In this document: piece after piece, positions 27,091 through 28,985 of the stretch | How the letters are laid out: every line of letters begins with the position of its first letter | Position numbering within the stretch: position 1 is the first letter of the stretch | Assembly (NCBI RefSeq): GCF_018476525.1 | Contig: NZ_JAHCST010000062.1 | Span: 1-54,274 of the forward strand | Direction: 5' to 3' | Length of the DNA stretch: 54,274 nt | From: Acrocarpospora catenulata | Lineage (GTDB): Bacteria > Actinomycetota > Actinomycetes > Streptosporangiales > Streptosporangiaceae | Translations under genes and position numbers: made by a program | The notes under the pieces: generated by a model | What the model was told of the DNA's origin: nothing | What the model saw: the letters and a program-made list of their open reading frames with translations, nothing else | The model's database searches: none

Positions 27091-27617
27091 GTGAAGCGAC
27101 CAACGATCACCGACATCGCCAGAGCGGCGGGAGTGTCCAAGGGCGCCGTCTCCTAGGCGCTCAACGGCCAGGCCGGGGTGTCGGAAGGCACCCGGCAGCG
27201 GATCCTCACGATCGCCGACCACCTCGGGTACCGGGCCAGCATCGCCGCCCGCGCCCTGGCCGGAGCGCGGGCGAAGGTGATCAGGCTGGCCCTGCCGCGT
27301 CCGCCGTCCGGTTGCTCATCGCGCGACCGCGGCCCACCGCCATCGTCTACGACAGCGATGTGATGGCCCTGGCGGGGCTCGGCGTGGCGCGGGAACTGGG
27401 CCTGCGCGTGCCCGCCGACCTGTCCGTCCTGGCCTGGGGTGACTCCCCCCTCTGCGCTCTGGTCCGGCCTGCCATCACCTCATTGAGCCGGGACGCCGTC
27501 TCCGACGGGGGACACGCGGTCCGGTTGCTGCTCGACTGCGTCGAGGGCGAGGCGCCGGCGCACGTCGAGGTGCGGGCGCCCGAACTGATCATCCGGGCCA
27601 GTACGGGTTCGGCCTGA
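27091..27617 (+). pseudogene. LacI-family regulator, broken by stop, deletion and frameshift
   Basis: The GTG at 27091 opens a normal LacI DNA-binding domain (VKRPTITDIARAAGVSKGAVS), but codon 22 is TAG (27154-27156) where the family has a sense codon before ALNGQAGVSEGTRQRILTIADHLGYRASIAARALAGA. At about 27290-27320 the core domain jumps, with a change of frame, to its last third (IARPRPTAIVYDSDVMALAGLGVARELGLRVPADLSVLAWGDSPLCALVRPAITSL...ELIIRAS), ending at 27617. Roughly 100-150 residues of the ligand domain are gone. It probably once controlled the mannosidase and xylanase genes that follow. Confidence 0.9.
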
Positions 27618-27774
27618 TCCCATTGACACCGCTGTGAGGTAAGACGTAATTTCGTGATGCTTACCCGGTTAAGCCAAATTCTCCGGGAGCCTTGGCGTGC
27701 TTGGGCGAGAGCGCGCCATAGGGCTGGATCGGCCGAGCTAACGTGTCTCGGTTCGCATCACGATCACTTGCAAT

Positions 27775-27788
27775 ACCGGTTCAGTCCT
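27775..27788 (+). promoter_or_regulatory. ACYGGTTCAGTCCT box before mannosidase remnant
   Basis: ACCGGTTCAGTCCT lies 36 bases before the remnant's start and matches the box at 28472-28485 in 13 of 14 bases. It is a candidate operator of the decayed LacI protein. ACCCGGTTAAG at 27663 may be a weaker copy. Confidence 0.45.
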
Positions 27789-27823
27789 GGGATCACTCGA
27801 CCCCACCCCCTTGAGGAGAATCC

Positions 27824-28336
27824 GTGATCGCCACCCAATTCCCGGACACCGGCTGGACGCTCACGGCGGTGCCGGACGACGTCGCCATCGCCGACGTTCC
27901 GGCGACCGTGCCCGGGTGCGTCCACACCGATCTCCTGGCCGCCGGGCTGATCGCGGATCCGTACCTGGACGACAACGAGACCCGGCTCGGCTGGATCGGC
28001 CGCACCGTGTGGGCGTACGAGAGGAGTTTCCGGTGGTCTCCTGACCAGAACACCGAAACCGACCTCGTCTGCCACGGTCTCGACACCGTCGCCACGGTGA
28101 TCCTCAACGGGGGGCGGGTCGCGTCCACCGCGAACCAGCACCGCTCCTACCGGTTCCCGGTGCGGCACCTCCTGCGGGAGGGCGACAACCGGCTGACCGT
28201 GATCTTCGACTCCGCGTACGACATGCTGTTGACCCTGCTTCCCGGGGAGGTCGCCCACATCTCGGTCACGACCGATCAGGACCTGGATGTGGCGGCCCTG
28301 GTCCGCGCGCCCGTGCTGCGTGTGGTGAACGGATAA
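27824..28336 (+). pseudogene. Beta-mannosidase (GH2) remnant, ends fused by internal deletion
   Basis: The GTG at 27824, with a GAGGAG ribosome site, opens a typical GH2 sugar-binding domain (GWTLTAVPDD...TVPGCVHTDLLAAGLIADPYLDDNETRLGWIGRTVWAYERSF...HGLDTVATVILNGG...RFPVRHLLREGDNRLTVIF). At about 28220 the frame passes directly into what looks like the C-terminal tail (LLTLLPGEVAHISVTTD...VVNG). Full enzymes have about 800 residues; only 170 remain, with no catalytic domain. The frame is still open, so a short protein could be made but not a glycosidase. Confidence 0.88.
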
Positions 28337-28342
28337 ACAGCT

Positions 28343-28381
28343 CCTCGTGCGGGCGCTTTGGGACGGAGCGCCCGCACGAGG
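28343..28381. terminator. Hairpin terminator after mannosidase remnant
   Basis: There is a perfect 15-bp stem (28343-28357 with 28367-28381; CCTCGTGCGGGCGCT) and a 9-base loop, starting 6 bases after the stop codon. Confidence 0.85.
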
Positions 28382-28471
28382 CCATTCCCGCATTGATTTT
28401 CCTATTTGCTTGAATCGCTCCAATTGTGTAAAGCAATAAAGAGTTAACGGCCGAAAAACTATTGAAACTTA

Positions 28472-28485
28472 ACTGGTTCAGTCCT
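28472..28485 (+). promoter_or_regulatory. ACYGGTTCAGTCCT box before xylanase remnant
   Basis: ACTGGTTCAGTCCT lies 61 bases before the remnant's start in AT-rich DNA. It is the same element as at 27775-27788, indicating that the two genes shared a regulator. Confidence 0.45.
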
Positions 28486-28546
28486 TGACTCAGGAATTGC
28501 TGGCATCCCAGGTCCGGATTCCCAACTCGTCAGGGAGACGTACAAC

Positions 28547-28985
28547 ATGAGCGGTCACCCCCCACCATGCCGCGGCCCCCCCGCCACCATCCTGGCCATC
28601 GTCCTCGCGCTCGTTCTCGCGGTCGGCGGTGTCAGCCTGTTACGGCCCCAGCGCCGCCTACACCTCGGTCCTGAACGCCCTCAACGTCGGATCCCCCAAC
28701 CCCACCCCGACGCCCACGCCGACTCCCACCTCCGGTAGCGGCGGGCAGATCAAGGGCGTGGCCTCCGGCCGATGCGTGGACGTGCCGAACTCCAGCACCA
28801 CCGACGGCACCCGGGTGCGGCTGTATGACTGCAACGGCAACACCAACCAGCGGTGGACCTACACCGCCGCCCAGGAGCTGCGCGTGTACGGCAACAAGTG
28901 CCTGGACGCCGGCGGTTCCGGCAACGGCACCCAGCTCCAGCTGTACTCCTGCTCGGGCGGCAACAACCAGAAGTGGACGCTCTAG
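28547..28985 (+). pseudogene. GH10-like xylanase remnant with ricin-type lectin tail
   Basis: The ATG at 28547 starts a signal-peptide-like stretch ([20 protein letters not shown]). At about 28640 this frame is replaced by another one carrying the last residues of a GH10-type domain ([11 protein letters not shown]), a Pro-Thr linker and a ricin B/CBM13 lectin region with two QxW-type repeats ([54 protein letters not shown]). The catalytic domain is missing, the two parts are out of frame, and a third lectin repeat is absent. Bases 28653-28686 are identical to 53549-53582 in the intact xylanase gene. Confidence 0.85.

Follow-up and report, generated by a model that had tools for sequence, protein, structure and literature searches.

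A stretch of 54,274 bp from Acrocarpospora catenulata (called the window below) carries what is very probably the eroded remnant of a gene cluster that formerly resembled an intact one of Herbidospora cretacea, cut down by at least four illegitimate deletions, independent or successive. The locus is a real and ordinary decayed cluster with a readable deletion history, in which about 15.3 kb of cluster have shrunk to about 1.6 kb, so that roughly nine tenths are gone. The host is a soil actinomycete with a genome of 10.29 Mb in 181 contigs, one of which (C141) is the entire window. As described in a first-pass annotation of this DNA, three truncated glycan-related genes stand in a row within 27091-28985. 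No title on this locus was found among the listed matches of the Acrocarpospora genome literature.

The intact cluster of Herbidospora cretacea

A family search covered 341 genomes, 307 of which had a match, with two candidates scored per genome. Among the matches listed, the LacI-A, LacI-C and GH2 pieces occur together only in a genome (G086) that is presumably that of H. cretacea. The species was also among the closest relatives of the GH2 remnant in a scan of genome contigs (best 80 of 400 stretches encoding a relative), and strain NBRC 15474 (NZ_BBXG01000009.1; L037 in Table 1) was used as the reference. Its ten genes stand in the order LacI-A, binding protein, two permeases, LacI-B, LacI-C, GH2, ROK, GH5-1 and GH5-2, and span 15,310 bp from the start of LacI-A to the stop of GH5-2; the window retains 1,561 bp of this (27091-28651). 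The cluster probably serves the use of mannan, as suggested by the type of its GH2 enzyme, its GH5 domains and a mannanase-domain match of GH5-1 that falls below the threshold (24.1 bits against a cut-off of 27).

The aligned pieces of the window (26.88-28.65 kb) are collinear with the H. cretacea cluster. The two agree in the order and origin of all pieces to the left of scar D4, in the upstream regions and in the terminator; they differ in extent, with ten genes over 15.3 kb in one and about 1.6 kb of pieces in the other. The reference cluster as defined has no GH10-ricin gene, whereas the relic ends in the tail of one. Most of 27615-27798 has no clear counterpart in the reference by DNA alignment. 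Intact homologous genes are known, and the window copy is without essential parts and carries disabling lesions, namely a TAG codon at 27154-27156 and changes of frame at D1 and D4. Alignment with intact homologues, which the first-pass annotation had proposed for defining the junctions, placed four scars (D1-D4) and left their exact positions and microhomologies approximate, since just one reference has the complete gene order and its DNA differs from the window by 15-26%.

Table 1. Features of the relic, aligned segments and genes of the reference cluster, in order of position.
Feature	Window position	Strand	L037 position	Basis or identity
LacI-A upstream region, left edge of relic	26878..26945	+		DNA alignment to L037
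Aligned segment	26878-26945		2823-2890	85.5% DNA identity
Operator-like half site ACTGAACC	27056-27063			Motif scan
Piece 1: LacI-A leader and first 72 codons, GTG at 27091	27056..27306	+		DNA and amino acid identity
Aligned segment	27056-27321		3032-3301	77.9% DNA identity
Scar D1: LacI-A start to LacI-C end, frame changed	27306..27309 (~27307)	.		Best breakpoints
Piece 2: last ~102 codons of LacI-C and stop	27309..27617	+		Amino acid identity; Peripla_BP_3
Aligned segment	27322-27607		9380-9665	74.5% DNA identity
Aligned segment, 30 bp	27645-27674		9732-9761	86.7% DNA identity
Operator-like half site GGTTCAGT, upstream of GH2	27778..27785	+		Motif scan
Aligned segment	27812-28220		9989-10397	81.9% DNA identity
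Piece 3: N-terminal part of GH2 (beta-mannosidase type)	27824..28217	+		DNA identity; Glyco_hydro_2_N2
Aligned segment	28204-28331		12250-12377	76.6% DNA identity
Scar D2: within GH2, in frame	28215..28220 (~28218)	.		Best breakpoints
Piece 4: C-terminal 38-39 codons of GH2 and stop	28218..28336	+		DNA identity to L037
Scar D3: GH2 end to GH5-1 end	28331..28336 (~28333)	.		Exact join uncertain
Terminator hairpin, 15-bp perfect stem	28343..28381	+	15310-15346	Counterpart in L037
Piece 5: upstream region and signal-peptide leader (ATG 28547) of two-domain GH5-2	28410..28651	+		DNA alignment
Aligned segment	28444-28667		15425-15649	75.4% DNA identity
Operator-like half site	28475-28482			Motif scan
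Scar D4: GH5-2 leader to GH10-ricin tail, frame changed	28651..28652	.		Best breakpoints
Piece 6: last residues of GH10, linker, shortened ricin-type beta-trefoil domain	28653..28985	+		DNA identity; Pfam
L037 LacI-A			3070
L037 binding protein			4221
L037 LacI-B			7591
L037 LacI-C			8623
L037 GH2			9992
L037 ROK			12382
L037 GH5-1			Stop at 15305
L037 GH5-2, two-domain with CBM2			15470-18379

Two LacI genes joined at scar D1

The left edge of the relic lies four bases past the stop codon of the flanking membrane-protein gene (25543-26874). The stop codon at 27154-27156 is in frame inside the LacI-A piece, and the scar that follows has cost 6079 bp (about 6.1 kb), measured as the difference between alignment offsets. 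Compared with 68 LacI-type open reading frames that carry both parts, the N-terminal part comes nearest to LacI-A of H. cretacea, with 80.6% identity in amino acids against 53.0% to LacI-C, and the C-terminal part comes nearest to LacI-C, with 75.0% identity, the next best at 59% and LacI-A at 47.5%. Separate trees of 69 tips each placed the N-terminal part with LacI-A (support 0.90) and the C-terminal part with LacI-C (0.87). Piece 2 matches Peripla_BP_3 with an E value of 1.3e-23. The best LacI matches of the sister species lie in open frames of 341-381 aa. A LacI regulator combines a DNA-binding head and a sugar-binding domain in one gene; here they come from two source genes, with a stop codon and a change of frame. 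A single LacI gene with an internal deletion was ruled out, as the halves originate from two LacI genes. To judge from these identities, the 'LacI' of the window is an accidental fusion of two different LacI genes.

The GH2 remnant and scars D2 and D3

Piece 3 matches Glyco_hydro_2_N2 (E 5.4e-40), an N-terminal domain and the sole Pfam match of the GH2 relic. The relic aligns with two separate parts of GH2 enzymes, their first 120-130 residues and their last 39. From the difference between alignment offsets, D2 has removed 1869 bp, or 623 codons, running from about residue 132 to the last 38. A GH2 beta-mannosidase depends on a catalytic domain with two glutamates, and both presumably lay within the lost part, as in known GH2 mannosidases. 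A search with the relic found matches in 18 of 60 genomes, at 38 listed places. The open frame in the window has 173 aa and those at the 37 other listed places have at least 672 aa; among these 37, six are second, C-terminal matches within genes counted before, and one has an internal TGA. Conserved short forms in relatives, which would count against decay, are thus absent from the GH2 places listed. D2 is the sole true loss of a gene's own middle among the three truncated genes.

Scar D3, between the GH2 and GH5 pieces, is, like the TAG codon, additional to the first-pass annotation. It represents a loss of about 2.9 kb, comprising ROK and almost all of GH5-1. The counterpart of the window hairpin in H. 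cretacea stands directly past the stop of GH5-1 and not past GH2, and therefore the end of GH2 has been joined to the end of GH5-1.

The GH5-2 and GH10-ricin fusion at scar D4

Piece 6 and an intact GH10-ricin gene elsewhere in this genome (C35:102235-102573) are 83% identical; a GH10 partner is absent from the H. cretacea cluster. Its match to Ricin_B_lectin (E 8.1e-23) covers positions 3-83 of the 126 in the profile, against 2-126 in the intact gene. The relic has no GH10 match, and the intact homologue on C35 matches PF00331. The third gene as a single gene with an internal deletion was also ruled out, because its leader is that of GH5-2 and its tail that of GH10-ricin. By its closest relatives, then, the 'xylanase' of the window is a GH5-2 leader fused to a GH10-ricin tail.

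The ricin-type domain at 28653-28985 lacks its last third and holds two of three repeats, possibly through a further deletion between internal repeats. This fifth deletion was left uncounted, as the two-repeat form is also present in a gene of A. corrugata (L131). Another GH10 gene, with fibronectin-like repeats, occupies 52538-54274 and runs off the end of the contig; at 53552, at least 26 consecutive bp of it are identical to the GH10 tail of the relic.

The first-pass annotation had held that each of the three genes lost its middle and kept both ends. This stands for GH2 and does not hold for the LacI and 'xylanase' genes, which are the two fusions. Its account of the frames, shifted at two junctions and kept at one, agrees with the breakpoint alignments, in which the LacI and third-gene junctions are shifted and the GH2 junction is in frame. 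Its proposal that deletion acted here repeatedly is supported by the four scars that comparison with the H. cretacea cluster reveals within 1.6 kb. Three such similar events side by side had been considered unusual. No special mechanism is needed for this, since the ancestral stretch was mostly coding (from the list of open reading frames) and most deletions in it join a gene start to a gene end.

Genomic context, transfer and assembly

Stretches fetched from four sister species match the window as far as about 26853, where the neighbouring gene ends, and 26854-33797 has no DNA match in the syntenic stretches fetched from these four species. The right flank (33798-46079) is 92-94% identical to a contig of A. 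pleiomorpha (C31), with the match starting at 33798. The relic thus occupies a part of the window that varies among the species. The left neighbour, a gene at 25526-26853, has an 84% identical counterpart in A. pleiomorpha, on a different contig (C8); the contrast between the two flanks in that species possibly reflects a rearrangement or a recent exchange. Beside the relic, at 30908-32287, is a solute-binding protein gene followed by permease genes, and its best listed match in the four sister species is 33% identical. In a genome that is presumably A. phusangensis (G004:C15:95359-96676), the orthologue of the membrane protein (25543-26874) is split into two adjacent matches (residues 1-189 and 191-439), which suggests a frameshift.

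Horizontal acquisition of the cluster, already partly decayed or decaying after transfer, with some of the scars made in another host, is possible and in our estimate on the unlikely side. It would fit the missing DNA match of 26854-33797 in the stretches fetched from the sister species and the placement of the flanks on different contigs in A. pleiomorpha, as well as a G+C content of 65.6% in the relic against 70.8% in the window. However, the intact cluster of H. cretacea has a G+C content of 65.0%, so that a low value is a property of the intact cluster too, and independent loss in the sister species would give the same pattern. Transfer is, moreover, compatible with serial deletion, and the two do not exclude each other.

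The suspicion that the sequence was altered or misassembled is very improbable, although the contig belongs to a 181-contig draft and the sequence to the right of D4 agrees exactly, over at least 26 bp, with the GH10 gene at 53552 on the same contig. A repeat-driven misjoin requires a long word common to both parents, and the relatives indicate that few bases were common to them at the scars. When k-mers centred on each of five joins were looked for elsewhere in the window, none longer than 10 bp was repeated. The stop codon indicates decay, and the pattern of changes by codon position, given below, leans the same way.

Retained signals

Gene starts, operator-like sites and the terminator hairpin are preserved, in agreement with the neat signals described in the first-pass annotation. 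Each of the three half sites stands upstream of one retained gene start, and the reference has counterparts of two of them (at 3032 and 9929). The motif ACTGAACC/GGTTCAGT probably represents the halves of a LacI operator. The same motif recurs directly before the LacI gene of the mannan cluster on C97 (L130 12865). That the relic was retained for these sites, as a decoy tuning a surviving LacI regulator, is a reading to which we give very little weight.

How the deletions arose

The most probable history would be a series of at least four illegitimate deletions in a redundant, decaying cluster. These would have left behind the start of LacI-A, the end of LacI-C, both ends of GH2, the terminator of GH5-1, the leader of GH5-2 and the tail of GH10-ricin. 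The order of events may have been gradual, with redundancy allowing the losses to persist, and the joins may be the work of end joining or of a different process that uses short homology. Judged from relatives, the parent sequences have few bases in common at each scar, and therefore recombination over long homology is unlikely. Random pairs of breakpoints drawn from the cluster share at least three bases in 6.6% and at least four in 2.3% of cases; as such random sharing is not negligible, the short ambiguities at the scars are compatible with microhomology and are no proof of it.

Junctions made by non-homologous end joining (NHEJ) have either 0 or 1-6 nt of homology, and the breakpoints in the window are ambiguous over a few bases against a diverged reference. 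A Ku gene is present in the genus, with one match in each of the five Acrocarpospora genomes. In Streptomyces ambofaciens, Hoff et al. (2018; PMC5869714) have described cut-induced NHEJ scars with microhomology of 1-6 nt in half of the cases, and deletions that reach 23,591 bp and depend on Ku and LigC/D. The deletions of the window resemble these in the loss of several kilobases and apparently in joins with zero to few shared bases. The scars of Hoff et al. were induced by cutting and sequenced directly, whereas we infer those of the window from a diverged relative. Among the pathways that may have acted here we consider end joining the most likely, with slippage or some other mechanism based on short homology as a possible alternative. 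RecA-dependent recombination between similar genes could be imagined for the LacI genes, as LacI-A and LacI-C are paralogues, but it is highly unlikely: D1 ends at places that do not correspond (codon 72 of LacI-A and the last third of LacI-C) with flanks unlike each other, and D2 and D4 join unrelated sequences.

Signs of decay and redundancy

The GH2 piece was compared by codon position in the window and Herbidospora lineages. With 11 outgroups, changes at positions 1, 2 and 3 number 4, 5 and 1 in the window lineage against 7, 2 and 9 in the Herbidospora lineage. Positions 1 and 2 together account for 9 of 10 changes in the former and 9 of 18 in the latter (Fisher p 0.048, from small counts on a short sequence); for position 2 alone p is 0.063. 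With one outgroup, the changes are 6, 9 and 11 against 9, 0 and 13, and position 2 has 9 of 26 in the window against 0 of 22 in Herbidospora (p 0.0022). Outgroup-invariant GH2 residues have changed about equally, three in the window and two in H. cretacea. The LacI-A and GH2 pieces, compared directly with H. cretacea, differ preferentially at third positions; most of the divergence thus predates decay, which looks recent relative to the split.

It is extremely doubtful that the short genes have a function, such as sugar binding by the 170-aa GH2 product. The GH2 relic does have an open frame with a start codon and a ribosome site, and its galactose-binding-like domain is partly retained (profile 1-123 of 167). 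Its catalytic part is lost, however, the LacI gene has a stop and a change of frame, no short form occurs among the relatives listed, and the changes by codon position hint at relaxed constraint.

Other GH2 genes with long open frames are present in the same genome, on C97 (1112 aa) and C171 (1035 aa). ROK- and GH5-like genes adjoin the former, a transporter of the type in the cluster is found on C171, and a GH5-2-like gene is on C101. Since the genome still has related GH2, GH5, ROK and transporter genes in other places, it could probably tolerate the loss, and these genes may act as functional replacements. Movement of genes rather than loss was rejected: a DNA search of five Acrocarpospora genomes with the complete H. 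cretacea cluster gave, among the matches listed, none recognisable as a displaced copy of a missing piece. The related genes sit in other clusters (C97, C171), and the GH5 gene on C101 shares its neighbours with A. pleiomorpha (about 80%).

Significance

The relic is a clear example of a whole carbohydrate cluster cut down to gene ends. It offers a readable case for the study of deletion scars in actinomycetes other than Streptomyces and raises no new question. It is also a warning, as such relics are annotated as 'truncated LacI', 'GH2' and 'xylanase' although two of these three fuse different genes.
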